DNA from: an uncultured bacterium
GTDB lineage: Bacteria; Vulcanimicrobiota; CADAWZ01
Length of the DNA: 64,000 nucleotides
Direction of reading: 5' to 3'
Assembly: GCA_902790465.1 (NCBI GenBank)
Contig: CADASF010000012.1
Span: 1 to 64,000 of the forward strand
The notes under the pieces are model-generated. The model did not search any database. It was not told where the DNA came from and saw only the letters and a list, made by a program, of their open reading frames with translations. Position numbers and translations under genes: made by a program. This document shows, piece by piece, positions 22,352-38,476 of the stretch; position 1 is the first letter of the stretch; every line of letters begins with the position of its first letter.

Positions 22352-24313
22352 ATGAAATTTAAATTTTCAATATTATTATTTCTTTGCTTTTTCATGATTG
22401 CTTCTGTGCCTTCATTTGCACAGGTAAATACAACAGAAATTAAGCAAGAAAATTCAAAAGAAAATAATAAATCAGAAGAGCCAAAAGGTCCACCTGTTGA
22501 AGTTCTAAAAGATGAGATAGGTCTTATAGTCACAGAAAACGGGACAATGGTTCAAACAGAGGATGAATCAATAAAAATTTTAACTGAAAAAGCTGCAAAA
22601 GAATATTCAAAAGTTGTGAGATTCTATACGGCAACTGAACAAAAATTTCGCATTGAGTTCGCAAGAGTAATAAAAAAAGATAAAAGAATAATTGACATAA
22701 CAAAAGATCCTGAGTCAATAGCTTCTAAAGATTTTCCACCTCTAAAAGATTCACCATTATACAAAAATTTAAGAGGAGTTATTCTTGATTTTGGAACTCT
22801 TGAAGTTGGAGATACAATAGAATACAGAGTATTAATAACAGATTTAGAGCCATATCCAAATAAAGCATTTTGGGTGACATCTATGTCTCGTGATATAAGT
22901 ACTCTCAAAAATTCAAAAGTAATTTTCACTTGTCCAGAAAATACTTCTTTTAATTATGTAACTTATAGACAAAAAGATTCAAAAATGCCTTTATCTAAAA
23001 AGACATCAAAAGGTATAGACAACTATTCAATTACATTTAAAAATGTTCCAGCATTTAAAGAAGAAATAGCTATGCCTCCTATTGCTTCTATTTCTCCAAA
23101 GGTTATGATTTCAAGTTTTAAAAATTGGTCAGAATTATCAAATATGATAAATGAACTCCTAAAAGATAAATTGACCTTAAGTGAAAAGATGATCAAAGAT
23201 TTAAAATTTTTGGAATCAGAATCAACAAAAAAAGGACTCGAAGATAAAATCTATAACTTAGTAAAAACTTCAAAGACAGTTGTAAATGTTGGATATGGTC
23301 TTGGTAGCTATAGATTCAACAAAGTAGCTGATATATATCAACAGAAAAAAATATCATCTATTGATTCTGCTTTATTGCTTTATTCACTTTATAAACAAGC
23401 AGGAATTGATGCACACATAGCATTAGCAGCTTCAAATACAATTGGAAATATATCAAAAGAATTACCTTCAGTTCAACAATTTGACACAGTTTTAGTTGTT
23501 ATTCCACAACAAGATGGAAAATATAAATGGCTCGATCCAAGTTATAGATCGACATTTGCAGGAGAACTTCCACAAGAACTTAATGATTCAGATGCAATGA
23601 TTGTTAACAATGTTGGAACACTTACAAAAACTCCTAAATCTGTTGCATACAAAAACAGAGAAGAAATAAAAGGAGAAGTCAAATTACTTGCAGATGGAAA
23701 TGCAGATGCTGTTATAAACTGCGACTTTTTCGGAACAAATGCCATATCTTGGACTGGTCTTTACAATCAATTAAATGATATACAAAGACAAAATCTATAT
23801 AAAGTAATTGCCCAAAGAACTGCTCCAAATGCAAATGTACTAAATAGTGGATTAAGTGTACCAAAAACAGCAGAAGAACCATTTTCTGTATTTGTAAGAT
23901 ATATCTCATTTACCATGGCAAAAAAAGTAGGAGACAATAGATTTGAATGTGCACTGCCAATATTAAAAGGTGGAGATATGAGAAAAATAATACAGAGTAA
24001 TCTCTTGGATAGAGAATCACCTGTATTTGTTGGTACCCCTTGTCAAGAAGATAGAAGTTTCAGAATAAATCTTCCTGAAGGTGTAAAAGTTGTTGAGATG
24101 CCAAAACAAATTAATATTGATAACAATGTTGGTTCATTTCAAATAATATGTGATAAAACAGATAAAACAATATATTATCACAGTCGTCTTGTATTAAAAA
24201 AATCTATGGTTGAAAAAGAAGAATTTAAAGAACTAGAAGATATTTTAAAAGTAGCAAGTAATTCTGGAACAGATAAAATAATATTAACAGGAATAACAGC
24301 AGGTAAAAGATAA
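22352..24313 (+). CDS. Secreted DUF3857 / transglutaminase-like protein
   Basis: 653 residues with a signal peptide (cleavage near FAQ). Residues about 60-230 fit DUF3857 (TENGTMVQTEDESIKIL, LRGVILDFGTLEVGDTIEYR). The central region, about 290-400, occupies the transglutaminase-like place (SIDSALLLYSLYKQAGIDAH, then VQQFDTVLVVIPQ and YKWLDPSYR). The catalytic Cys of the usual DCxD segment is replaced (SIDSALLL), although H and D positions are plausible, so it may be non-catalytic. The family is common in the periplasm of diderms with unknown substrate. The stop overlaps the ispE start (TAATG). Confidence 0.75.
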   Translation: MKFKFSILLFLCFFMIASVPSFAQVNTTEIKQENSKENNKSEEPKGPPVEVLKDEIGLIVTENGTMVQTEDESIKILTEKAAKEYSKVVRFYTATEQKFRIEFARVIKKDKRIIDITKDPESIASKDFPPLKDSPLYKNLRGVILDFGTLEVGDTIEYRVLITDLEPYPNKAFWVTSMSRDISTLKNSKVIFTCPENTSFNYVTYRQKDSKMPLSKKTSKGIDNYSITFKNVPAFKEEIAMPPIASISPKVMISSFKNWSELSNMINELLKDKLTLSEKMIKDLKFLESESTKKGLEDKIYNLVKTSKTVVNVGYGLGSYRFNKVADIYQQKKISSIDSALLLYSLYKQAGIDAHIALAASNTIGNISKELPSVQQFDTVLVVIPQQDGKYKWLDPSYRSTFAGELPQELNDSDAMIVNNVGTLTKTPKSVAYKNREEIKGEVKLLADGNADAVINCDFFGTNAISWTGLYNQLNDIQRQNLYKVIAQRTAPNANVLNSGLSVPKTAEEPFSVFVRYISFTMAKKVGDNRFECALPILKGGDMRKIIQSNLLDRESPVFVGTPCQEDRSFRINLPEGVKVVEMPKQINIDNNVGSFQIICDKTDKTIYYHSRLVLKKSMVEKEEFKELEDILKVASNSGTDKIILTGITAGKR

Positions 24314-25146
24314 TGACAACAATTTGCAAAAATGCTTTTGCAAAGGTTAATACTTCACTTATTCTTGGAGAAAAAAGGCATGACGGTTTTCATAATATAA
24401 AAACCGTCATGCTTAAAATATCACTAAATGATAAACTTGAATTCCGTCTAACAGAAAAAAAATCGACTTTAAAAATAAAAGGCGAACTGTCAGACGGAAT
24501 TTCTGTTTTAGAAGATAACCTTGTTCTAAAAGCATTAAAAAACATAAAGAATATAGCGGATATAAATGACAACTATGAAATAACACTTACAAAAAATATT
24601 CCGTCACAAGCTGGATTAGGTGGAGGCTCATCTGATGCAGGTGCAGTTATATCATTTATAAAAGAAAAATATAATTTATCTATTGAACAAGCACAAAAAG
24701 CCGCAGAAGAAACAGGAAGTGATGTTCCTTTCTTTTTATATGGTAATAGGTCTCTTTCAGAAGGGAGAGGAGAAATAATAACACCTCTCCCCCATATTGC
24801 AAAACTATATTTAATAATAATATTACCAAATTTTGGAATATCAACACCTGAAGCTTACGGACTTTGGGACGAATATTATTCAAAAAATAAAATAAACGAA
24901 AATTTCAATATAAATACAGAAATTTTTCAAAATGATTTTGAAAAAGCCTTAAAAGATAAATATCCTCAAATAGAAGAAATAAAAAATATATTAAAAAAGG
25001 AAAAAGCCACTAATGCTCTATTGTCAGGAAGTGGCTCTGCAGTATGTGGCTTTTTTAATTCAAAAGAAATAAGAGATATTGCTTTTAATAATATAAAAAA
25101 TTATATAGTTCCAAAATATCAAATCTTCAAATCTGAAACATTATAG
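24313..25146 (+). CDS. ispE: 4-diphosphocytidyl-2-C-methyl-D-erythritol kinase
   Basis: 277 residues of a GHMP kinase for the MEP pathway to isoprenoids; phosphorylates CDP-methylerythritol. AFAKVNTSLILGEKRHDGFH is the substrate segment, IPSQAGLGGGSSDAGAV the GHMP ATP loop, and LLSGSGSAVCGFF the C-terminal motif. It shares one base with the stop of the preceding gene, so translation is coupled, though no functional link is evident. It is the last + strand gene before the long - strand block. Confidence 0.95.
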   Translation: MTTICKNAFAKVNTSLILGEKRHDGFHNIKTVMLKISLNDKLEFRLTEKKSTLKIKGELSDGISVLEDNLVLKALKNIKNIADINDNYEITLTKNIPSQAGLGGGSSDAGAVISFIKEKYNLSIEQAQKAAEETGSDVPFFLYGNRSLSEGRGEIITPLPHIAKLYLIIILPNFGISTPEAYGLWDEYYSKNKINENFNINTEIFQNDFEKALKDKYPQIEEIKNILKKEKATNALLSGSGSAVCGFFNSKEIRDIAFNNIKNYIVPKYQIFKSETL

Positions 25147-25230: not shown

Positions 25231-26715
25231 CTAATCTTTACAAAACATATCATATAACATATCGGCCAAATATTCAGCATTTTGTGATGAGCCGATATTT
25301 TTTATTAAAATATTGCTTGTTCCATCTTTCATATACACAAGAATTCCAAATCCATATTTCTTACCACGTATAGATTTAATAATATTTGGTAAAATATTTT
25401 CTGGATTTTGTAGTATTCTAAAAACTTCTAAATCACATTCATAAGCCCTAAAATCAACAATATTTCCAATATCATTTGAATAACTCAATTTTTTCTTACC
25501 AAAAAAATCTATATCCCAAAAAATAAGCTCATTTTTATCCATAGACACTGCATAATTTAAAAATCTATACTTATAATAGAAAAATCCTACAATAAAATAA
25601 ATAATTAAAATGCAAATATACAATATCACAAAAATAGTAGAAATATAATCAAAATAGATGTTATGCATTGCAAACAATAAATAATATATTGAAGTAGCAA
25701 ACATGAAAAAACTAAAATGTATACTCAAAAAGAGCATAAGCAAATTTTTAACAGCTTCATCAGAAGAAGAATATTTAGTTATTGTTATAACATCTTCCTT
25801 ATCACTAAAAGAAAAATATTTAGAAAAATTCACTATTGATTTAAATGGGTGTTTATAATTGTCATCTATCAAATGTTTAACTGAATCATCTTGTTGTTTT
25901 TCATCACTTGAGTCGTTTGATTTATTATCTTCCTCTTTTTCAAATTTTGTATATAGATTCTTTTTGTTAAAATCATATTCGCCTTCTATAGGTGTATCAT
26001 CAATATTCAAAGTCCTTTCAAACTCTTGTTCAAAAAATCTTGCAATATATTCAGATGGAAGGTCTGATAATAATTTATAATCCCTATCTTCTCCTTCACC
26101 ATCAGAAGATACAATCATCCTCAAATCAAAATACTTATTATAATAAAAATTCTTTATATTCTCTGCTTTGAAAGTTTCTTTCATATTCATGAATCCAAAA
26201 GTTTCTATTTCCAAAGAATCAGAAGTTAATTTTAATTTTATTTCTGAATTTAAATTATATAAAGTATTATCTATAAAGACTATTATTTTAGAAACTAATG
26301 CAATAATAAAAGCAATAAAATAAACAACAAGTAAATATGACAAAAAGACCAAAAAAGAAAATCCTTGATTTATGAATTCAAAAGAAAATAGATTAGAAAT
26401 ATGTGATAAAAGCTCTTGAAAAGTTCCACTAGAAAAAGCATATAAAAAGCAACAAAAACATATAATCCATAGAATAAAAGAAAATCTTATAAAAAAACTA
26501 AAAAGACTTTCAAAAAACATATTGAATCTATTTAAATCAAATCCTGAACGAATAGGATGATCATACCAATTAGAGGCTTTTAATGAAATATTTAGTTCAT
26601 TAAATCCACTTTCTGGTACACCTTCAATTTTTTCAACCCAATTTATATTTATACCACGAGGTACAGATAATTCCTTAAATCGTAAATTAGGCAAAATTCT
26701 CTCATTAGTGGACAT
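25231..26715 (-). CDS. Array member J: doubled TM/PH-like membrane protein, no zinc ribbon
   Basis: 494 residues. Two copies of the array's module follow one another: a pair of long membrane helices (about 70-95 and 120-150) plus a beta-rich PH-like domain, then FFEQEFERTLNIDDTPIEGEYDF (the shared acidic tail motif, near 230-252), then a charged linker (EEDNKSNDSSDEKQQDDS), a second helix pair (about 320-385) and a second PH-like domain. It lacks the N-terminal zinc ribbon of several relatives. It has its own promoter just upstream, unlike the tightly spaced genes before it. Function unknown. Confidence 0.7.
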   Translation of the reverse strand: MSTNERILPNLRFKELSVPRGININWVEKIEGVPESGFNELNISLKASNWYDHPIRSGFDLNRFNMFFESLFSFFIRFSFILWIICFCCFLYAFSSGTFQELLSHISNLFSFEFINQGFSFLVFLSYLLVVYFIAFIIALVSKIIVFIDNTLYNLNSEIKLKLTSDSLEIETFGFMNMKETFKAENIKNFYYNKYFDLRMIVSSDGEGEDRDYKLLSDLPSEYIARFFEQEFERTLNIDDTPIEGEYDFNKKNLYTKFEKEEDNKSNDSSDEKQQDDSVKHLIDDNYKHPFKSIVNFSKYFSFSDKEDVITITKYSSSDEAVKNLLMLFLSIHFSFFMFATSIYYLLFAMHNIYFDYISTIFVILYICILIIYFIVGFFYYKYRFLNYAVSMDKNELIFWDIDFFGKKKLSYSNDIGNIVDFRAYECDLEVFRILQNPENILPNIIKSIRGKKYGFGILVYMKDGTSNILIKNIGSSQNAEYLADMLYDMFCKD

Positions 26716-26784
26716 TTTTAATCCTTTTCTACTTAATCGTTGTAATAATCAATTCACAAAATATAAAATTTAGAGATATTTAAT

Positions 26785-26813
26785 ATTTTATGAAAAAATA
26801 TAAAAAATGTCAA
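26785..26813 (-). promoter_or_regulatory. Sigma-70 promoter of array member J
   Basis: On the - strand TTGACA (26813-26808), a 17-base spacer and TAAAAT (26790-26785) lie about 70 bases before the gene. Confidence 0.65.
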
Positions 26814-26816
26814 TAA

Positions 26817-27896
26817 TTAAAATCCAAAACTTGTTTTCTTCTTATGAATAACTTTATCATATTTAGTATCCATTGGCTCATCATTTATTATTCTATTTAT
26901 AGCATAAGCAATATATTCCGCTTCTTCAAAAGATATTCTATTTATTAATACCTCAGACTCCTTAGAAGAAAAATCAGAAAATATTCTAACCTCAAACCAA
27001 CCAATATCATTTCCGTTGTCAATACGATATTTTATATCCATTTCAGTTGCTTTTACCTTAGAAGATTCTCGTAGATTTATAGTTTTAGGTTGTACAGTAC
27101 CTCCCCATGGTAAAATCTTATAAAATTGTGCCTGATTTTTAGTCAATGAAAGAGAAAAACCCAATCCAAAAAATAATGCTATTATAGATGCCAATATTCC
27201 TGCACCCAATATGATTATACAAAAACTAGAAGCAAAGGAAACAGCTCGCTCATCAATTAAAGAAACAAACATTATAAATAGCGTAATTGCCAAACAATAT
27301 AAACTATATCCCCAATATGGATTTTTTTTGATAATCAATGAACTTTCATTTTCAATAACAGAATTAAAATTGATGAAATTTACTTTAAATCTTCCATTTT
27401 TAGATACATTAGGTATTTGCAACATATCTTTAATCTCTTGAACAACAAAGCGAGCTTGATATATAGATTTAAAATTTAAACCAAACAAATCAAAAATTTC
27501 TCTTGTTTCTCCTAAAGATTTTAAAGAAATAGGATGATTTAATACAAGTACAACAATATAATACAAATATTCAGCATTATTATTACTGATAATTGTTCTT
27601 TCAACATGTATATCTTTAATCTGCTCTTTAGTAATTATTATTGAATCAAAATTACCATTTATCTGTTTGATTTCTATTTCATCTTTTAAAACAAAAACAT
27701 CTATACCGCTTTTCTCAGCAAACCCATATTTAAAAAAATCTCTTCCACCTTTCGAAGAACGAAATTGAATTTGATTATCATTTTTTGCAAATTGAAAATC
27801 ATTTGGAAATTTTATTTCGCTTTGAGAAATCTTATCAAAATATGGCATTTCACGAATAATTATATCAGAATGAGATTGCTTTAGTTTTAATGACAT
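26817..27896 (-). CDS. Array member I: PH-like / TM / PH-like protein
   Basis: 359 residues. A beta-rich PH-like domain (about 40-165; IIITKEQIKDIHVERT) is followed by a RFVVQEIKDMLQIPN element equivalent to the shared tail motif, two membrane helices (about 195-250) and a second PH-like domain ending in RISFEEAEYIAYAINRIIND. That end matches the SLTFEEAEYISFRINRLLE end of member B, which shows kinship. No zinc ribbon. GGAGG precedes the start, 23 bases after member H. No known function. Confidence 0.7.
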   Translation of the reverse strand: MSLKLKQSHSDIIIREMPYFDKISQSEIKFPNDFQFAKNDNQIQFRSSKGGRDFFKYGFAEKSGIDVFVLKDEIEIKQINGNFDSIIITKEQIKDIHVERTIISNNNAEYLYYIVVLVLNHPISLKSLGETREIFDLFGLNFKSIYQARFVVQEIKDMLQIPNVSKNGRFKVNFINFNSVIENESSLIIKKNPYWGYSLYCLAITLFIMFVSLIDERAVSFASSFCIIILGAGILASIIALFFGLGFSLSLTKNQAQFYKILPWGGTVQPKTINLRESSKVKATEMDIKYRIDNGNDIGWFEVRIFSDFSSKESEVLINRISFEEAEYIAYAINRIINDEPMDTKYDKVIHKKKTSFGF

Positions 27897-27919
27897 TTTT
27901 TTATTCCTCCAAATCTAAT

Positions 27920-28828
27920 CTATCTAACGCCTCTTAATTTTGCATTGACAATCTTTTTTACTTTTGAATCATAATCAAATTCCTCTTCAACAAGCTCATC
28001 TTCAATACACAAAACTCTCTCAAATTCTCGTTCCATAAATCTTGCATGTGCAGGGTTTTTAAATGTTAGACCTGTATTTATAAAACGCTTTATTTTTCTA
28101 TCTAACGAAGCAAATTTTTCATCTTTAAAAATAGGATTTTCAACTTCAAAAAAAACTTTATATAACGGCACTTGTGATGAAGCATCAAATACTTGAGTAT
28201 CTGCTAAGCTAACATAGCTTACTCCACCTCTCCCTGAAACATACATTTGACTTGAAAACATTTCAAAAAGCTCAAAAATAACATGATAATTTGTTACTTT
28301 CATTTTTCTTGAAAACCAAAATTGCTTAATATTTCCTCTTGGAATAAAATACTGTATCATTGGAGAGATTACATATACACCATTAGGATTGACTTCAAAA
28401 GTAAAATTATTCATAAATTTATCATATATAGAATTTAAAAAACCACCTATAATAAAATATATAAAAAACATAGTAAAAAAATTGCCATGAGAACCAGTCA
28501 TAAAAAAAAGGATCAAAGCTAAAATATAAAATAATAGATGTTTATGATAAAAATCTCCATTGTCAATTTTTCTGGTTATGATAAAACCATCAACTGTTTT
28601 AATAAACCCTCTCGGCTCTTCTATGGGAAGATCGTTTATTACAGGAGTATTATAATGTGAAACATCAACTTTTGGAATATATCTCTGAACATGAAGTTCT
28701 TCTGATTCACTAATTTTATTTATATTTTCGGCATTTAAATAACCATTTTCTGAAGAAATTTCTTCTCCACAATAAGGACATATAGAAAAATATTTATCAT
28801 CTTCATGACCACAAACTTTACATATCAT
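27920..28828 (-). CDS. Array member H: zinc ribbon, two TM, PH-like domain
   Basis: 302 residues. The zinc ribbon has C3-x2-C6 and C17-x2-C20 (MICKVCGHEDD, ICPYCGEE). A low-complexity linker leads to the family signature PRGFIKTVDGFIITR...DNGDFY, two membrane helices (about 98-140), a PH-like domain beginning FTFEVNPNGVYVISP, and the tail ARFMEREFERVLCIEDELVEEEFDYD. With the ribbon at the N-terminus and no signal peptide, ribbon and PH-like domain should both be cytoplasmic. Function unknown. Confidence 0.72.
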   Translation of the reverse strand: MICKVCGHEDDKYFSICPYCGEEISSENGYLNAENINKISESEELHVQRYIPKVDVSHYNTPVINDLPIEEPRGFIKTVDGFIITRKIDNGDFYHKHLLFYILALILFFMTGSHGNFFTMFFIYFIIGGFLNSIYDKFMNNFTFEVNPNGVYVISPMIQYFIPRGNIKQFWFSRKMKVTNYHVIFELFEMFSSQMYVSGRGGVSYVSLADTQVFDASSQVPLYKVFFEVENPIFKDEKFASLDRKIKRFINTGLTFKNPAHARFMEREFERVLCIEDELVEEEFDYDSKVKKIVNAKLRGVR

Positions 28829-28840
28829 GGGATAAAAACC

Positions 28841-29566
28841 TCACTTAATTTCTACCAAATCCCAACTACTATCAAACTTCCAGATATTTCTCACTTTTTT
28901 AACAATAAACTCAGCAGTATCTTCCTTGAAAGAATATTTATCAAATAAATTAAATACTTGTTTTTCTTTTTTATTTTGAATATTTACAGGTTTACAACAA
29001 GTTAAATAAATTTGATAAGAACCATTAAATTCTTTTGAGCCTATAGAAGCAATATTCTCTCTTTCAATAAAAAATGATTTTTTTTGAACTTCTATATTAA
29101 GACCCTTTTCATTAATATTGAAATGAATTTTATTTTTAGATTTATACTGAGCCAAATAAAATCCAAGTATTAAACAAAATAAATAAAATGAAATTGAAGC
29201 GACAGGTTCTAAAACCTTAAATATATCAGATAGAGAAGCATTTAATAAATAAAAACAAATCCACGGAGAAATAGAAACAACAAGAAGAATATATCCAATA
29301 AAATTAGCTACATTAAAATTGGCTTTATGAAAAAATTCAATTCCACAATCACAATCAATTGATATTTTATTTTCTTTATTAAAATATGTGATATTAAAAT
29401 TTTTTGGATAAATATACTGCTTTTCTATATTTTTATCAAATTTTTCTTTCCAATCATTATCAATTCCATTAAACTCACTGTAACCTGCTGTACCGCAATG
29501 CTTTAACAAATCTTTTTTATTACTATTTGTTAATTTTTTCTTGACTAAATATTTATTATTCATCAC
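28841..29566 (-). CDS. Array member G: short TM / PH-like protein
   Basis: 241 residues. It lacks the zinc ribbon but keeps the rest: an N-terminal region (FNITYFNKENKISIDCDCG), two membrane helices (about 78-130), a PH-like domain (FNINEKGLNIEVQKKSFFIE corresponds to FTFEVNPNGVYVISP of member H) and a C-terminal helix without the acidic EYDF tail. It is the most reduced intact member. Twelve bases separate it from member H, so they share a transcript. Confidence 0.68.
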   Translation of the reverse strand: MMNNKYLVKKKLTNSNKKDLLKHCGTAGYSEFNGIDNDWKEKFDKNIEKQYIYPKNFNITYFNKENKISIDCDCGIEFFHKANFNVANFIGYILLVVSISPWICFYLLNASLSDIFKVLEPVASISFYLFCLILGFYLAQYKSKNKIHFNINEKGLNIEVQKKSFFIERENIASIGSKEFNGSYQIYLTCCKPVNIQNKKEKQVFNLFDKYSFKEDTAEFIVKKVRNIWKFDSSWDLVEIK

Positions 29567-29593
29567 AAACGACCAATCCTAAATCTTTATCAT

Positions 29594-29620
29594 AGCGTGT
29601 TTGCAAACTATAAACACGCC
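29594..29620 (-). other. Hairpin between array members F and G
   Basis: GCGTGTTT and AAACACGC form a stem (29595-29602 with 29609-29616 approximately). It is not followed by a T-run, so it is more likely an RNA-processing or stability structure than a terminator. Confidence 0.4.
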
Positions 29621-30472
29621 CTATCTTAACAATCTTTCAAACTCTTCAACTAAAAATTTTGCTTCTAATGAACTGTTAAAAGACAAACCTGTATTTATAT
29701 GATGTAAATATTTCTTATCATCTGAAGCAAATTTATCATTAACAAAAATAGGTTCTGCAACGGTAAAAAATATATTATATCCTTGTCTTTGTAATACTAA
29801 TCTTTCTACAGCTTCAGGATCAACATAAGTACGAGTAGTGCGTGTTACTGGGTCATATCTCCTACGACGTCCAGTATCTCTAAATAATTTAGTTCTATCC
29901 AAATGTCTAGTTATAAACTCAAATTTAAAAGTTCTAAGATTTTCTTTGTTAATAAAATATTCTTTCATTACTGATTTGACATAAAGACCATTTTGATCCA
30001 TGGTAAAAGTAACTGAATTTACAATAATATTATAAATCCAAGATAAAAATAAATAAAGCAACATAAATACGACACTTGAACAAATAAATGATAAAATAAT
30101 GCCATGTACAGTATCTCCCTCTACAGCAAAATATTTATCTTTAAATATAAATAAAACAATAAAAACCAAAACTGAAATGATTGTAACAAATAAATTAAAT
30201 AACAAATAAGTTTGATAAAATTCCCCATCTTTTACAATTTGTTTCATACTAAAACCATTTGCAGTCTTAAAATATCCCTTTGGGATTTTCTGAGGTGAAG
30301 TCGGCAAAGGTGGATTCATATTAGGATTATTATAAATATCAGGATTATTTGCCGTAGGATTTATACTGACATATTCACTCTCTGAATTAGAAGCTATATC
30401 TCGAGGTTTATCACAATAAGGACAAACTGTAAAATCTTTTAAACTATTATATCCACAATTACTACATCTCAT
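29621..30472 (-). CDS. Array member F: zinc ribbon, two TM, PH-like domain
   Basis: 283 residues. Zinc ribbon C3/C6/C17/C20 (MRCSNCGYN, VCPYCDKP), linker with N/P repeats, signature PKGYFKTANGFSMKQ...KDGEFY, two membrane helices (about 95-155), PH-like domain starting VTFTMDQNGLYVKSVMKEYF, and ARG/Tyr-rich loop. It ends at FLVEEFERLLR without the acidic tail seen in members D, E and H, as if truncated at the C-terminus. A foldback element lies immediately upstream. Confidence 0.72.
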   Translation of the reverse strand: MRCSNCGYNSLKDFTVCPYCDKPRDIASNSESEYVSINPTANNPDIYNNPNMNPPLPTSPQKIPKGYFKTANGFSMKQIVKDGEFYQTYLLFNLFVTIISVLVFIVLFIFKDKYFAVEGDTVHGIILSFICSSVVFMLLYLFLSWIYNIIVNSVTFTMDQNGLYVKSVMKEYFINKENLRTFKFEFITRHLDRTKLFRDTGRRRRYDPVTRTTRTYVDPEAVERLVLQRQGYNIFFTVAEPIFVNDKFASDDKKYLHHINTGLSFNSSLEAKFLVEEFERLLR

Positions 30473-30788
30473 ATTTTTACCTCTAATCTAATTTAACTCG
30501 TTTTGCTATTTTTAAAAAAAATAAGTAAATAAAAAATTGCTATAAACTATCCAATATATGCCTGTATACTGCCACTTTGTCATTGCGAGGCTTTAGCCGT
30601 GGCAATCTAAGCCTGTAAATTATTATTTACTTAAACTCGCAATGACATTACTTCTAAATAGAGGCTATTCTGGTGTATTTTAAAATATTAATCAACTAGC
30701 ACAAGGCGTTATTTTAGTTGTTAAATACCTAAAAAATAACTAACACAACAAATTAATTTCTATCAAATGGAGTATTTATACCTTTTAT
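30473..30788. other. Intergenic region holding a nested foldback element inside the array
   Basis: 316 bases without a gene, interrupting an otherwise tightly packed gene array. Outer arms ATTTAACTCGTTTTGCTA (30490-30507) and AACTAGCACAAGGCGTTA (30694-30711) are imperfect inverted copies and match the inner arms of the element at 39636-39975. Inner arms TGTCATTGCGAG (30578-30589) and CTCGCAATGACA (30636-30647) are a perfect 12-base inverted repeat. Confidence 0.6.
30578..30647. repeat. GTCATTGCGAG palindromic repeat
   Basis: A perfect 12-base inverted repeat encloses GGCTTTAGCC, GTGGCAATCT and AAGCCT, so a second hairpin (AGGCTTTAG with CTAAGCCT) can form inside. CATTGCGAG...GGCAATCT palindromes are known in the intergenic DNA of many unrelated bacteria. 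Only one copy is seen here. Confidence 0.7.
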
Positions 30789-31769
30789 TTATTTTCCTGT
30801 TTTAACATTATAATCATATTCTACAGGTATGGGGTTATCAGGAAGTCCTAAAATTTTTCTTAACTCTTGATCAAGAAATCGAGCTTCCGAATGGCTTTCA
30901 AAAGAAAGTCCTGTATTTATAATGCGTAAGCCTTTTTTGTATTCAGAAGCAAATGTATCATATTTAAAAATAGGCTCTTCAACTTCTATAAAAACATTAT
31001 ATCCCTTCTTAGGTCCTTGTGCATTATTATTATTTCTATTATTTATCTTACGAGCTGTATCATGAAATAAAATATTATTATCATATTCACGAAAAAGATT
31101 ACTATAGCGACTTCTCCTTCCGCTGGGACCTGAAAAAATAAAATCTCGTTTAACATTTACATTCTTTGTGAAAAAAGAAGAGAATTTATTTGACTTTTTA
31201 GTTATACCTTGAAACCAAGAAGCTTTTATATTTGACTTTGAGATAAAATACTGTTTCATTGGGGATTTTACATAAATTCCATCTGAATTTACTTCAAAAG
31301 TAAAATTATTCATAATTGTGCTATAAGCAGAATTTATCAAAAAAGCAAATGGTGGTATAACAAGAACACTAAATAATAAATGAGTACACGATAAATCAGC
31401 AGAAGCAAAATTTCCATTATTTAAAAACACCGCAGAAGAAATAAAAAATATAAGAATAATAAGAGCCCCTACAATATTAAATAACATATAGTTATAATAA
31501 AAATCTCCATCATCCATTGAATGTGAAATTTGAAATCCTTCTGCGGTTCTTGTAAATTCCCTCGGTTGACTTGTTGGCAAATCTACAACATTTGGAAGTA
31601 AATTAGGATTATATTGAGGAACAGGCTGACCTAATTGGTTATTTGAGATTTCATTATTAAAATTACTATTATTTTGTTGATATTGATTTTGATGTTTTAC
31701 TTCTTCGCCACAATAAGGACATATTAAAAATTGTGTATCATCTTCATAGCCACAAATAGTACATTTCAT
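30789..31769 (-). CDS. Array member E: zinc ribbon, two TM, PH-like domain
   Basis: 326 residues. Zinc ribbon C3/C6/C17/C20 (MKCTICGYEDD, ICPYCGEE), Asn/Gln-rich linker, PREFTRTAEGFQISH...DDGDFY, two membrane helices (about 98-155), PH-like domain (FTFEVNSDGIYVKSPMKQYF), a basic loop (KKSNKFSSFF...RRSRYS), PIFKYDTFASEYKKGLRIIN and tail ARFLDQELRKILGLPDNP with EYDYN. It is closest to member D, probably a recent duplicate. The spacing to D is 18 bases. Confidence 0.74.
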   Translation of the reverse strand: MKCTICGYEDDTQFLICPYCGEEVKHQNQYQQNNSNFNNEISNNQLGQPVPQYNPNLLPNVVDLPTSQPREFTRTAEGFQISHSMDDGDFYYNYMLFNIVGALIILIFFISSAVFLNNGNFASADLSCTHLLFSVLVIPPFAFLINSAYSTIMNNFTFEVNSDGIYVKSPMKQYFISKSNIKASWFQGITKKSNKFSSFFTKNVNVKRDFIFSGPSGRRSRYSNLFREYDNNILFHDTARKINNRNNNNAQGPKKGYNVFIEVEEPIFKYDTFASEYKKGLRIINTGLSFESHSEARFLDQELRKILGLPDNPIPVEYDYNVKTGK

Positions 31770-31787
31770 ATTTTTATTTTCCTACAA

Positions 31788-32768
31788 TTAATTTCTATCA
31801 AATGGAGTTCTTGTATCTTGTTTTGGTTTTCCTGTTTTAAAATTATAATCATATTCTCCCTGTACAGGAGTATCAGGAAGTCCTAAAACCCTTCTAAATT
31901 CTTGATCAACAAATCGAGCTTCCGATGCACTTTGAAAAGAAAGTCCTGTATTTATTAGGCGTAAACATTTTTTATCTTCAGAAGCAAATATGTCATTTTT
32001 AAAAATAGGTTCATGTACTTCAATAAAAACATTATTAGCTCTTCTAACCTCTTTCTCATTGTGAAACATATCGCTATTATCTCTTTCGTGTCTATCAAAT
32101 AAAATATCATCAAATAGACCACTTCGTCTATATCTTCTCCGAAAGAAACTCATAAAAAACGATCCATAATTAAATTTATCAACAACTTTACTTATATTTT
32201 CAAACCAAGATATTTTTATATTATTTCTTGGAATAAAACATTGTTTCATAAGGGATCTTACAGAAATCCCTTCTGGTGATACTTCAAAAGTAAAATTATT
32301 CATTAATGTACTATATATATGATTTATCAATGAGGAAAAAGACATAAAAAGGAAAAAACCTAAAAATAAGATAAAAAAAGAACCATCAGAACTTCTCCCA
32401 TTAGTTGCACATATAATAAAAAATATAATAATAGAAAGAATACCTAAAATATTGAAAAATATATATCTATGATAAAATTCACCATCATCAACAGCATGGT
32501 TTATTTTAAATCCTGTCATAGTTCTGACAAACCCTTTTGGTTGTGTTGTTTGCAAAACATTATGAGTTACAGCACTATTTTTGGGTTGATTGATATTTGG
32601 AGTAGTTGGTATAGCCCCAAAATCTCCATTATAATTAATAGGACTATTTACGGAAGAATTTATTGAATTATTTATAGAATTATTATTTTGTTGGGTAACT
32701 CTTTCACCACAATAAGGACATACTGAAAATTGTTTATCATCTTCATAGCCACAAATGTTACAACGCAT
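31788..32768 (-). CDS. Array member D: zinc ribbon, two TM, PH-like domain
   Basis: 326 residues, the same length as member E. Zinc ribbon C3/C6/C17/C20 (MRCNICGYEDD, VCPYCGER), Asn-rich linker, PKGFVRTMTGFKINH...DDGEFY, two membrane helices (about 100-155), PH-like domain (FTFEVSPEGISVRSLMKQCF), Arg-rich loop, PIFKNDIFASEDKKCLRLIN and tail ARFVDQEFRRVLGLPDTP with GEYDYN. GAGGGGGG precedes the ATG. Confidence 0.74.
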   Translation of the reverse strand: MRCNICGYEDDKQFSVCPYCGERVTQQNNNSINNSINSSVNSPINYNGDFGAIPTTPNINQPKNSAVTHNVLQTTQPKGFVRTMTGFKINHAVDDGEFYHRYIFFNILGILSIIIFFIICATNGRSSDGSFFILFLGFFLFMSFSSLINHIYSTLMNNFTFEVSPEGISVRSLMKQCFIPRNNIKISWFENISKVVDKFNYGSFFMSFFRRRYRRSGLFDDILFDRHERDNSDMFHNEKEVRRANNVFIEVHEPIFKNDIFASEDKKCLRLINTGLSFQSASEARFVDQEFRRVLGLPDTPVQGEYDYNFKTGKPKQDTRTPFDRN

Positions 32769-32782
32769 ATTTTCCCCCCTCT

Positions 32783-33024
32783 TTAAATTCCCAAAACATT
32801 TTTAAATTTATATTTCAAAAATTTACCAGTAGTTGCATAATCAAATGAAACACCTTTGACATACTCCCCATAAATGAATTTAGGGGCATTACGGTGCGTT
32901 TCTGTAAAAATTGTACCTTTTAACTTTTTTTCACTAATAACAATATTATTTTTCAATTTAATATAAAAACCATTAAAACAAATATCATAAGTATAAGTCC
33001 GTCCTCTTGCTATTGGGGCAACAT
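32783..33024 (-). pseudogene. Array member C: short frameshifted PH-like paralogue
   Basis: After AGAGG an ATG (33024-33022) reads M-L-P-Q then TAG at 33012-33010, but the +1 frame is open to TAA at 32783-32785. Adding one C to the CCCC run (33015-33018) would restore 80 codons starting MLPPIARGRTYTYD. The product (YDICFNGFYIKLKNNIVISE, ending TGKFLKYKFKNVLGI) aligns with the PH-like core and tail of members D, E and H, without ribbon or membrane helices. Either a decaying copy or a sequencing slip in a homopolymer. Confidence 0.6.
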
Positions 33025-33036
33025 ATTTTTTAGCCT

Positions 33037-34314
33037 CTATTTAACATTTCTTTCCAAAAGTCTATTTATTCTAAAGGATATGTATTCAGCTTCCTCAAAA
33101 GTCAAACTGTGCATTAAAACAACATAATCAAATCTATTATTTACATTTGGATATAATTTTACACAATAGATACGAATAAATGAAGGATCGCCACTTGTTG
33201 AAAAACCAAATGAAGAAATGCCTCTATCTTTATTTTGATAATAATACACTGTTTTTCCATCTCGTTCTTGTTCTTCAGCAATTGCTTGGGAATTGAAATC
33301 AAGGTTTATTTGTTTTTCTTTGTTTGGTTCTTTACCAATTATATTTGAGTCAGAAATTTTTAATGTTTTACCATCAACCAAAAAACTCGAAATCTTCTTG
33401 AACAATAAAAAGTTAAATTCTCTCTTTAAGAAAAATTCTTGATCATCATCTTTAAGTATATATAAATTTTTTGTAAACTCAGGCTTTGGAAGTTCTTGAC
33501 CATTGAGATTATTTTTTATTGTCGTATATTGTTTTTTTGAAAATTCAAATTCATCTTCAACTGGTCTATCTGGAATACCAAGAATTTTTTCAAACTCTTG
33601 TTCAAGAAAGCGAACTTCTTTTGGATTTGTCATTTGAATTCCTAAATCTATTTTATTTGTTGACTTCTTTTTCTCTTTTCCGATAAGAACATCTTTTACT
33701 GTTTTAATAAATAATTTATATCTATATATCAATGAGTCAGATGTGCTGTTAGAAGAAGAAGTATAAACTTTTTTTACAAAGTAAAACTGGTATATATCAT
33801 CTTTAGAAAGATGAACTAAATTTTCTTCTTTAAGATTATAGACCTTAACTTCATTTGGAGTTACCGAAATAGTTAAATGTTCTCTACTAAGAGCAGATTT
33901 CATAATAGTATAAAAAATCACTGCAAAAATAGAAAAGATAAAAGCAAATATACCTATAGAGACCAGAGAAACGATACAAGATAAATCTCCTCCAAAAACT
34001 AACAACAATCCTAACAAAATAAAACAAAAAATCAATATAACAAAAAATATCGGTCCTATTTTGAACAAATCAAATTTTTTATCTGTACCAAAATTTGGTT
34101 CTATACCTATATACTCAAAAACAGCACCATTATCATTATATGAAAAAGAATGACCATCAGGAAATAAAACATCATTTAAAGTCAAATCTTCCAAAATTCT
34201 CTCTGCATTTTGTTTATCAGTTTGAGAATTACTGTTATTTTTCATTGCTTCTGCACCACAAGAAGGACAAAATTTAGAATCCCCAATATTTGTTCCACAA
34301 TTATTACAATACAA
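33037..34314 (-). CDS. Array member B: zinc ribbon, two TM, two PH-like domains; TTG start
   Basis: 425 residues from the TTG at 34314. An ATG at 34347 overlaps member A, but the TTG lies six bases after GGAGGA and makes the protein begin MYCNNCGTNIGDSKFCPSCG, the same M-x-C-x-x-C-G opening as members D, E, F and H, so TTG is preferred. Two membrane helices (about 95-150) and a PH-like domain follow, then RFLEQEFEKILGIPDRPVEDEFEF and a second PH-like domain without membrane helices, ending LTFEEAEYISFRINRLLE as in member I. Confidence 0.72.
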   Translation of the reverse strand: MYCNNCGTNIGDSKFCPSCGAEAMKNNSNSQTDKQNAERILEDLTLNDVLFPDGHSFSYNDNGAVFEYIGIEPNFGTDKKFDLFKIGPIFFVILIFCFILLGLLLVFGGDLSCIVSLVSIGIFAFIFSIFAVIFYTIMKSALSREHLTISVTPNEVKVYNLKEENLVHLSKDDIYQFYFVKKVYTSSSNSTSDSLIYRYKLFIKTVKDVLIGKEKKKSTNKIDLGIQMTNPKEVRFLEQEFEKILGIPDRPVEDEFEFSKKQYTTIKNNLNGQELPKPEFTKNLYILKDDDQEFFLKREFNFLLFKKISSFLVDGKTLKISDSNIIGKEPNKEKQINLDFNSQAIAEEQERDGKTVYYYQNKDRGISSFGFSTSGDPSFIRIYCVKLYPNVNNRFDYVVLMHSLTFEEAEYISFRINRLLERNVK

Positions 34315-34331
34315 CTTCTTTCCTCCAAATG

Positions 34332-35549
34332 TTAAATAATTTTCCAAATACTTTCAAACTTCTGTTTTATTTTTATTGCTGTATCTTCACTCCTAAAAGA
34401 TAATCCAGTAAAAATTTTTTGTAAAACCCTATCTTTTTCAATAAAAATTTTATTTTTTCCAACCAAATATATATCATATGTGTTATAAGAAGGAGAATAT
34501 TTTCCACCCTCATGTCTTATTTTCAGAATTTCAACATTTGAAATTTCATTCTGAGATATTTTAATTGATTCTTTTTGTTTACCATTAAGAGGTTTGAAAT
34601 CAACAGCAATTCCTTCACTATTTATAGAAATTTTTCTCAATTTATTACTCGGATTCATAATATCTGAAGAAAAGAACAAACCTGTAGATAAAAATACAAG
34701 AAATAAAACAGGAAAAACAACTAAAAAATTTTCATTATTAAATATTTTTATGCCCAATATTTCTTGTAAAAATATAATAATAAAAAAAATGACAAAAAAT
34801 ATAAAACTAATAATAAAAAAAATACTACCTATGGGATTACTTCCAAAATTTCCACTTGGTATTTCACCTTCAAAGAAAAAGCCCTCAGATGTTTCCCTAT
34901 AAATATATTCTTTAGGCAAATGTAAATTATCTGCAAAAGAGTCATCAATATTATTTTGATTTTTAATTTTAATAGTATTTTCTTCTGAAGTTAAAATATT
35001 ATTTATCTCATCTAATAAAAGAGTAGCCTTTTGTTTTTCTATAACAATACCTGTCGTTATAAATCCAAATTTTTTAATACCATTTATTTCAACATATAAA
35101 TCTTGTTTCAAAGAAATAATTAATTGCATTAAATCATTTCTAAAAGAACATTTATCAATTACATTTTGAGGTATATTTATTTTTTTATCAAAATATTTAA
35201 AATTTATATCTATCCCATTTGGAGTTACTATAAAAGTACCTTTTCTTAGATTTTTATTATAATTATAAAAAACAATAAACAAAAATATTTGTGTTGCTAT
35301 ACTGATAAAAATAAGCAACATGCCTAAATTATCACTATGTAATTGTTCTGCTCCATAAGTATAACCAAAACAACAAAAAATAAGCCCACCAATCAATATT
35401 AAAATATATATTAGGAAATTGAATAAAATTCTTATAAAATTAAAATTATATGCAATATCTCCGCCAACAATATATTCAATTCTTAGTTCATTATTATTTT
35501 TTGTAAAAGAATAATTTCTCAATTCTTGTAAATAATCAATTTTTCCCAT
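34332..35549 (-). CDS. Array member A: doubled TM/PH-like protein, first gene of the array
   Basis: 405 residues. Two membrane helices (about 35-85), PH-like domain (FIVTPNGIDINFKYFDKKIN), then the family signature TSEGFFFEGEIPSGNF, a second helix pair (about 220-275) and a second PH-like domain (ISINSEGIAVDFKPLNGKQ) ending with IFTGLSFRSEDTAIKIKQKF, which matches INTGLSF in the shorter members. No zinc ribbon. A 174-base AT-rich gap precedes it; no clear promoter was found. Confidence 0.7.
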   Translation of the reverse strand: MGKIDYLQELRNYSFTKNNNELRIEYIVGGDIAYNFNFIRILFNFLIYILILIGGLIFCCFGYTYGAEQLHSDNLGMLLIFISIATQIFLFIVFYNYNKNLRKGTFIVTPNGIDINFKYFDKKINIPQNVIDKCSFRNDLMQLIISLKQDLYVEINGIKKFGFITTGIVIEKQKATLLLDEINNILTSEENTIKIKNQNNIDDSFADNLHLPKEYIYRETSEGFFFEGEIPSGNFGSNPIGSIFFIISFIFFVIFFIIIFLQEILGIKIFNNENFLVVFPVLFLVFLSTGLFFSSDIMNPSNKLRKISINSEGIAVDFKPLNGKQKESIKISQNEISNVEILKIRHEGGKYSPSYNTYDIYLVGKNKIFIEKDRVLQKIFTGLSFRSEDTAIKIKQKFESIWKII

Positions 35550-37248: not shown

Positions 37249-37851
37249 TTATTCTTTTTCTTTTTTATCTTCAGAAGATATCGGCAAGACAGATTTTTCA
37301 CCAGGATTAAATCCTGCCTTTAAACAAGAAAGACCATCTAAAAAATTTTCTTTCTGCTCATCTGATAAAAAAAATCTTAACGGAACAACATGTGCTCCCC
37401 TACCCTCTATACCTTTTATATATAAATAATTGTCATCTGTTCTAAAATCTTCCAATTCAGAAGGTTTTATATCTAAATCACCATATACACTTCTAATTTC
37501 AAGACAATTTTTCTTCAAAATATATTGTTTTGTTCCCTCTATCTGAAGCTCTTTTGGTGTTTTATTCATAATTGATTTATCATTAAAACTACCCATTATT
37601 TTATGAAATAATAAAGGAAAAATATTCAAAAGAGCTACGGCAATAACGAACAATACTATATATATATAAAGAGAAGGATTCTTTGATAAATCATCAAAAT
37701 TTGCCAAAAAAAGAATTGCAAAAAATATAAGTATAAAAAATCCCATATTTTTTATATTTTTTAAAACAGAAGATGTGTCAAGACTTACAATATACCTATA
37801 TAATGCAGCCATATCTTCATTTTTTAATTCAACAACAACTTTATTTTCCAT
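37249..37851 (-). CDS. YcxB-like membrane protein
   Basis: 200 residues. Two membrane helices (about 37-55 and 61-83) are followed by a beta-rich domain whose end, VVPLRFFLSDEQKENFLDGL, is the typical finish of YcxB-like proteins, which fold like bacterial PH domains. It is therefore distantly comparable to the array proteins at 25-35 kb but lacks zinc ribbon and signature. The start follows the Cys-rich gene by seven bases, with only a weak ribbon of purines, so translation is probably coupled. Confidence 0.7.
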   Translation of the reverse strand: MENKVVVELKNEDMAALYRYIVSLDTSSVLKNIKNMGFFILIFFAILFLANFDDLSKNPSLYIYIVLFVIAVALLNIFPLLFHKIMGSFNDKSIMNKTPKELQIEGTKQYILKKNCLEIRSVYGDLDIKPSELEDFRTDDNYLYIKGIEGRGAHVVPLRFFLSDEQKENFLDGLSCLKAGFNPGEKSVLPISSEDKKEKE

Positions 37852-37858
37852 TGTGAAA

Positions 37859-38476
37859 TTATTCTGGTAAATCTTTCTTTATTATATAATATACCATCTT
37901 ACCACCACTTGGTGCTTTTCCCAATCTTGCAAATTTAGCGTCACAAATCTGTTCGGCTACCATCATATTTCCATTTTGTTGGCTGTATTTGATTATGACT
38001 TTTGGAAGATTTTCTGGTTTAATCCAATATGGATAGAATTCTGTTGCACCTGTTGCTACTATTTCAATACTATTTCCTTTTTCTGTTGTGATAATATAAT
38101 TTGGACCATCCATTTCAACTTCGCCAACAATTATATAAGCTCTCTTGCCAGCAGGATAAGCTTCTTTATCACATACTCTTTTCATTACACAATAGCAATT
38201 TGCACAACATCTGCATTTACCTTGGCAAGTACATTGATATTCACATTTGCACTTCTTGCAACATTTACATTCTCCCAAGCACATGCATTTATCAGCACAA
38301 TTACATCTGTAACAGCAATTACATTTTCCACCACATTTACAGCTTCTTACACATTTGCATTTATTACAACAACCACAAACAGACTTAAAAACTGTCGAGT
38401 CTGCAAAAACAGGTGCTACAACAGAAAAAGCAAAGAAAGCAACTAATAACGACAAAATTTTTAAATTAATTTTCAT
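37859..38476 (-). CDS. Secreted cysteine-repeat (metallothionein-like) protein
   Basis: 205 residues. A signal peptide (cleavage near FADS, residue 25) precedes a block from C34 to C102 with 27 cysteines. It is built of three 18-residue repeats (46-63, 64-81, 82-99) of the form C-x-C-x-G-x-C-x-C-C-x-x-C-x-C-x-x-x, plus a partial fourth (34-45). Residues about 112-205 form a beta-rich domain (RAYIIVGEVEMDGPNYIITT). Basic residues alternate with the cysteines. Exported cysteine clusters could bind metal, hold an iron-sulphur cluster or form disulphide knots. AAGGAGG precedes the ATG; the gene starts 25 bases after prfB. No known family recognised. Confidence 0.7.
   Translation of the reverse strand: MKINLKILSLLVAFFAFSVVAPVFADSTVFKSVCGCCNKCKCVRSCKCGGKCNCCYRCNCADKCMCLGECKCCKKCKCEYQCTCQGKCRCCANCYCVMKRVCDKEAYPAGKRAYIIVGEVEMDGPNYIITTEKGNSIEIVATGATEFYPYWIKPENLPKVIIKYSQQNGNMMVAEQICDAKFARLGKAPSGGKMVYYIIKKDLPE

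Follow-up and report, generated by a model that had tools for sequence, protein, structure and literature searches.

We analysed the 64,000-base window formed by bases 1-64000 of contig C12 (CADASF010000012.1) in a 3.05 Mb draft genome of an uncultured bacterium of the phylum Vulcanimicrobiota, and describe here a tandem gene array at 25231-35549 on the minus strand. The open reading frame (ORF) listing gives nine open genes (A, B and D to J) and one remnant (C), in agreement with a preliminary description made from the letters alone. The array belongs to a family of membrane proteins whose common ancestry, predicted PH-like fold and transmembrane (TM) hairpin within that fold are each shown or well supported, as are its occurrence across the genus, its forms with one or two modules and its fast protein change. 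The family is absent from the reference libraries searched; its general build is already known. The anatomy is well supported, and what the proteins do, we infer.

Members D, E, F and H match one another pairwise at E 1.4e-30 or better. A single-pass profile of 11 canonical members including these four, whose best reversed decoy scored E 0.88, recovered B (E 4.5e-12), A (3.1e-7), J (1.2e-6) and G (1.1e-4). Member I was weak in this search, with E 1.3 over its full length and 0.021 at best for any single stretch; what links it to the family is a match of its tail to D (BLASTP 2.2e-4), together with an iterated profile that itself included I. From these comparisons it is well supported that the nine array genes are related, either mutually or to common relatives, with I as the weakest case. 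The 3' ends of D and E share 84% DNA identity over 250 nucleotides (nt), including bases beyond the stop of E. Across all aligned codons the identity is 69%, a difference suggestive of partial duplication or gene conversion.

We modelled D from 24 sequences (alignment A2) and J from 11 (alignment A3) with AlphaFold2. The D model has a mean predicted local distance difference test score (pLDDT) of 75, mostly above 90 in the PH part, and a predicted template modelling score (pTM) of 0.62. Along the chain, two short strands (80-92) precede a TM hairpin (104-156; first helix, TM1, 104-122); behind it come four strands (158-197), an insert of low confidence, two more strands (239-251 and 271-278) and finally a helix (281-295). 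With two short strands ahead of the hairpin and six behind it, followed by the helix, the predicted structure fits the seven-stranded β-sandwich closed by a C-terminal helix by which the PH superfamily is recognised. When D was compared with solved structures by VIA-align, nearly all listed rows were PH, PTB, FERM or FACT PH-type domains, the first of them 2gcj_C (Z 11.2, root-mean-square deviation (rmsd) 3.0, 110 residues). The aligned range, which in VIA-align means the first and last aligned residue only, begins at residue 76-87 in 50 of 50 listed rows, ahead of TM1, so that the strand preceding the hairpin would be part of the PH fold; the hairpin thus seems to be inserted into the fold after its first strand. 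The J model (mean pLDDT 62, pTM 0.48) has two hairpin/PH units, and VIA-align listed PH-type domains on both modules at Z ~6-9. The models of D and J therefore support a PH-like fold for the soluble part of these array proteins, as had been proposed from the strand pattern and TM placement.

The closest known layout is that of the bPH_2 proteins (PF03703, formerly DUF304; YdbS and YdbT), which combine a TM hairpin with a cytosolic PH-like domain, as the array proteins are predicted to do, and carry repeated units in adjoining genes; the array described here is larger and fast-evolving. YdbT is described as having six TM helices and three PH units (PMC8657885), and YdbS/YdbT-type proteins are reported to act in membrane care, as part of the sigma-W regulon (PMC3498285) and in leaderless bacteriocin export (PMC8657885). 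In our sample of the phylum, bPH_2 proteins occur in 14 of 58 genomes (E <= 0.001), with none of the four genomes of this bacterial family among them. Among the nine of these 14 loci that we aligned, three (L086, L089 and L092) have an N-terminal CxxC-CxxC ribbon together with at least one TM helix by hydropathy threshold, one has a TM helix without ribbon, and five have no TM helix. Since ribbon-bearing TM proteins with a bPH_2 domain occur in the phylum, the array architecture is of a known kind. Proteins with TM helices (L086, L089, L092) and without them (L091, L093, L094, L097, L098) thus coexist in one phylum. In the TM-less proteins an EEVLWSGKP-type strand leads directly into the PH part, and a similar (I/V)WxG stretch stands ahead of the hairpin in the ribbon-bearing ones, not in the same column of the program alignment; this suggests that the bPH_2 hairpin, too, is inserted after PH strand 1. 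Xu et al. 2010 (PMC2817789) took strand 1 to be lacking in membrane-bound bacterial PH families and proposed that these form membrane transporters or pores as oligomers. Our model of D and the comparison of bPH_2 proteins suggest instead that strand 1 is present ahead of the TM hairpin, which would correct that account.

The row with the most aligned residues of any listed for D is 8kei_D, a chain of the NOX2-p22phox-EROS complex (142 of 164 residues, Z 9.7, rmsd 6.7), and the same chain is the top row for the second module of J (149 of 164 residues, Z 8.8, rmsd 4.7). Soluble PH rows with low rmsd on D align ~110 residues; judged by these counts, the 8kei_D alignment probably spans both hairpin and PH. 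We take 8kei_D to be the EROS chain, because its 164 residues cover both PH and hairpin in the alignments and p22phox, by description, is a four-helix protein. The scores are moderate, the rmsd is high, and descent is not demonstrated by them; VIA-align cautions that Z below 8, or below ~13 for helical bundles and long helices, can reflect a common arrangement. According to excerpts of PMC5379978, EROS has significant sequence similarity to Ycf4, a photosystem I assembly factor, and has two TM helices with both ends cytoplasmic; the excerpts of PMC5091641 make no mention of Ycf4, C17orf62 or DUF4564. The hairpin and PH layout of the array proteins seems to match most of the EROS (CYBC1) chain, and no sequence similarity was detected between the array proteins and EROS or Ycf4. 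To our knowledge, EROS has no ribbons and does not occur in arrays.

Searches of reference libraries gave no family above cut-off for any of the nine members in Pfam or NCBIfam. The best sequence hint was the STM3941 family (NF041635; G 5e-5, A 0.0013, B 0.0079), which covers the hairpin and part of the PH domain; its best score is 23.2 bits (23.7 in the genome search) against a cut-off of 40, and the model was above cut-off in none of 38 genomes. STM3941-type matches in two other genomes (G002 and G004) had a family-profile E of 0.01-0.07 where listed, another on contig C53 of this genome 2.1, and none was admitted to the family. YcxB-like (PF14317), bPH_6 and bPH_10 proteins also have two TM helices and a PH-like domain; bPH_6 (E 0.017) and bPH_10 (E 0.045) gave stray matches to the family below their cut-offs, and for YcxB a search of the bacterial family's four genomes at E <= 0.001 gave no match. 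Hints from PHROGs to F (phrog_12855, 5e-5) and to B (phrog_2546, 7.6e-5; phrog_16989, 1.8e-4) were not counted as homology because the matches cover the ribbon or the ribbon plus TM. A sequence search of solved structures with a 24-row profile returned six matches (best E 0.14), which we regard as chance. The N-terminal CxxC-CxxC motif is found in B, D, E, F and H, as claimed beforehand, and by pattern in 10 of the 12 rows of alignment A1; the putative zinc ribbon thus has its two CxxC knuckles, but all Pfam ribbon matches fell below cut-off, the best of the nine members reaching 19.2 bits against 27 (B, Zn_ribbon_3). A text search of the literature with six words for proteins of this make-up returned no paper, and the one paper that names a bacterial PH domain, a zinc ribbon and a membrane protein together concerns, by the start of its abstract, the SHOCT domain. 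The earlier view that no such system is described holds in that no library model fits, and fails in that ribbon, TM and bPH_2 are already joined in proteins of the phylum.

An iterated profile run over the fetched loci collected 36 proteins at E < 1e-3, or 35 without a gene at 37249 considered below. These 35 fall in three of the four genomes of the bacterial family: 16 in this genome (G000), 14 in a congeneric one (G001; one cut by a contig end and one being half of a frame-broken gene) and five in a third genus (G003). The counts cover only loci found by related searches and are lower bounds, because contigs break, often near family genes. In the fourth genome (G002, 98% complete) no member passed the threshold, the best hints being a protein at E 0.01 and a ribbon-only match at 1.6e-4. 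A search of 18 genomes with A1 gave a match at E <= 0.1 in nine, and outside the three genomes with members only the ribbon end of the profile was matched. Family copies stand singly or in small arrays, at differing places.

The family proteins change faster than the genes around them, which is well supported by codon comparison between this and the congeneric genome. We estimated the ratio of nonsynonymous to synonymous change (dN/dS) by NG86, as point estimates, with dS near 0.9 approaching saturation. For seven genes near the array dN/dS was 0.04-0.11 (dS 0.62-0.91), and for five cross-genome family pairs, picked as close pairs, it was 0.20, 0.32, 0.49, 0.49 and 0.60 (dS 0.53-0.90); the array genes among them are D (0.32) and H (0.60). 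Between D and E it was 0.55. Compared region by region, the linker and TM hairpin belong to the most divergent parts and the ribbon and PH core to the least divergent, and the insert in the PH domain is strongly variable in six of seven pairs, the exception being D against its sister gene. We built a tree of 34 of the 36 proteins, leaving out the contig-cut L021_4767 and the 37249 gene. The nine array genes are scattered in it (8 changes, against a shuffled mean of 8.2); D, E and one sister-genome gene are grouped with 98/96 support, and several long branches are uncertain. As the array genes do not form one group in this tree, a recent expansion from a single copy does not seem to be the origin of the array. 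Together with copy sets and places that differ in the sister genome, the dN/dS values bear out the earlier suggestion of quick diversification.

Our preferred reading, which we put forward tentatively and place ahead of three others, is that the array proteins may be adaptors that are anchored in the membrane and, at its inner leaflet, bind membrane proteins or peptides as partners, in the care of the cytoplasmic membrane after the manner of YdbS and YdbT. An optional cytosolic zinc ribbon would lead through a flexible linker to the hairpin-split PH-like domain, its C-terminal helix and, often, an acidic tail. The β-sandwich would be held at the inner leaflet by the TM hairpin, with ribbon and PH domain on the cytosolic side, as the short hairpins and the topology described for EROS suggest. 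Hairpin and PH surface would grip partner membrane proteins or membrane-active peptides, paralogues would differ as their partners differ, and ribbons and PH edges might allow members to assemble, possibly among themselves. The excess in dN/dS fits either partner-driven diversification or relaxed constraint. Several observations weigh against this reading. Fast change at dN/dS below 1 can also be relaxed constraint, and the neighbouring genes offer no functional hint. The J model is of low confidence, and Foldseek alone gave no match at E <= 0.001. In this genome nothing matches bPH_2 (PF03703) at E <= 1, and a profile comparison with the bPH_2 proteins of the phylum found nothing; this comparison, which also covered YcxB, was a weak test with shallow sets, the bPH_2 set held at least one likely wrong frame, and L090 and L100 were apparently read in wrong frames. 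The family could instead consist of lineage-specific paralogues with a general envelope role under weak constraint, whose copies accumulate, drift and decay without conflict or partner specificity. The remnant and the truncated tail in the array, the varied architecture, the scattered sites beside mostly ordinary genes and a dN/dS below 1 agree with this; the ribbon cysteines, PH core and acidic tail are nevertheless conserved, the tail also in two proteins of another genus, and we consider this account rather unlikely, ranking it second.

Behind these two we rank assembly chaperones of the EROS/Ycf4 kind, in which each paralogue would hold a given membrane-complex subunit through its TM helices and cytosolic domain. 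The alignment of 8kei_D with D and with the second module of J speaks for them, together with the EROS-Ycf4 similarity and the two-TM topology, but the scores are modest and the rmsd high, and the layout is shared with bPH_2, so that a likeness to EROS need not imply an EROS function. No Ycf4 or DUF4564 was among the 25 of 70 Pfam families listed for 24 members, no redox complex was recognised next to the array, and a conserved assembly factor would not be expected in many fast-changing copies; we judge such a role unlikely. Last, and to us improbable, is a role in immunity or self-recognition, directed against membrane-acting toxins from competitors or kin. Immunity arrays typically consist of tandem paralogues that evolve fast, vary in copy number and include a remnant, and the array resembles them in these respects; there are also hints below cut-off to the NCBIfam model T6SS_Burk_ExIF, a putative type VI effector family (member I, E 0.0036, 17 bits against 90), and to Cpta_toxin, a membrane toxin family (one family member, E 0.0043). 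Pfam, however, recognised no toxin gene or secretion cassette among 10 genes round the array or 19 near other copies, a negative that is weak for the 19 because seven of them have no Pfam family (E <= 0.001). PADLOC gave a single ribbon-level hint (PtuB, E 0.0097), and no relatives were found in plasmid and phage records searched with D (tblastn, E <= 0.01) or in viral contigs scanned with one peptide pattern from A1.

Membrane-anchored bacterial PH-like proteins have little assigned function, and this family offers many natural variants in one genus, several members being in likely operons; its excess of protein change can be measured and its layout compared with EROS. A bolder proposal, to which we give little credence, is that the split-PH membrane chaperone fold known from EROS has a bacterial branch in this family, expanded into fast-evolving arrays in which each member, some of them ribboned, would tend a different membrane client. 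If true, this would connect EROS and Ycf4 with the bPH proteins of bacteria, and would show that the supposedly missing PH strand sits ahead of the membrane hairpin.

Four members have two modules, as had been described, with the qualification that no TM hairpin is present in the second module of B or in the first module of I. Member A (34332-35549) consists of two TM-hairpin/PH-like modules without ribbon, with profile matches at 43-194 and 243-404. Member B (33037-34314; the ORF tool begins at TTG 34347) has a ribbon, TM hairpin, PH-like domain and tail motif and then the second PH-like module; a start at TTG 34314, after GGAGG, yields the N-terminus M-Y-C-N-N-C-G. The remnant C (32783-33040) is an 86-codon 3' piece that encodes the end of a PH-like module and matches the congeneric family member L068_1_1182 (BLASTP E 6.9e-7). 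Member D (31788-32768) comprises ribbon, linker, predicted PH strand 1, TM hairpin, remaining PH part, C-terminal helix and acidic tail, and E (30789-31769) has the same layout, with its end cut by a TAA relative to D. Ribbon, TM hairpin and PH-like domain are followed by the tail in H (27920-28828) and stand without the tail motif in F (29621-30472), and G (28841-29566), the source of the best STM3941 hint, has TM hairpin and PH-like domain without ribbon. Member I (26817-27896), weakest in membership, has a PH-like domain, TM hairpin and second PH-like domain without ribbon. Member J (25231-26715) has two TM-hairpin/PH-like modules (aligned spans 36-250 and 302-494), an acidic tail behind the first, and no ribbon. 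The tail pattern, which was written from known examples, occurs in five of the nine members and in two proteins of another genus. The full signature P-[KR]-x-[FY]...FY, which had been ascribed to most members, is seen by eye only in D, E, F and H (four of nine). Gaps are -16 (A-B), -4 (B-C), 14 (C-D), 18 (D-E), 316 (E-F), 54 (F-G), 12 (G-H), 23 (H-I) and 101 nt (I-J), and the A-B gap becomes 17 nt if B begins at TTG 34314 behind GGAGG; only four or five of nine therefore lie within the 12-23 bases said to be the rule. Promoter and terminator scans gave chance level only. Within the E-F gap, at 30579-30646, lies an inverted repeat, GTCATTGCGAG...CTCGCAATGAC, which as RNA folds more stably than 200 of 200 shuffles (z -4.2) and which, with exact arms and a 20-50 base spacer, occurs once in this genome and in none of three relatives.

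The array is flanked by IspE (24313-25146, plus strand) on one side and by TSCPD-TrpS-PrfB-SecA (35724 onward, minus strand) on the other. In the congeneric genome the block 46807-37249 is retained at 74-96% protein identity, and TSCPD, TrpS and the array do not continue it; TrpS and IspE were not found in that draft. Its nearest array holds relatives of D (62% identity) and H (44%) and adjoins two secreted-looking genes, one of them lipoprotein-like. Different genes stand behind IspE in G002 and G003. The two-TM gene at 37249-37851, beside prfB and secA, is present in G001 (83% identity) and G002 (47%). As a further member it was rejected: the single-pass profile gave E 0.69 against 0.88 for its own reversed sequence, a profile comparison gave 16-20% against <0.5% for three controls, and it enters in the iterated search only. 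It is possibly a distant PH-like relative of the array, and it stayed in alignment A2 (24 sequences), which fed the D model. Next to it, at 37859-38476, a gene encodes a protein that looks secreted, is densely set with CxC/CxxC motifs and has no Pfam family at E <= 0.01; its counterpart in the congeneric genome is 96% identical.

Of the 19 genes examined near further family copies, those with a Pfam family encode metabolic, envelope or repeat proteins and one transposase, among them glycosyltransferases, an aldolase, a flavodoxin and a nucleotidyltransferase; the transposase is of the IS200 type and, with an OrfB-like protein recognised by eye, lies beside two family genes on a short contig (L029 2-1023). 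Family genes lie repeatedly near contig ends (C3, C43 and C79 of this genome, C77 and C129 of the congeneric one), as if the assembly had broken at them or at neighbouring repeats. At L022 2056-2812 of the congeneric genome a family gene is split over two frames, the first with the ribbon and a long linker of NQYNQN-type repeats and the second with the PH part, and such linker repeats may drive frame breaks.

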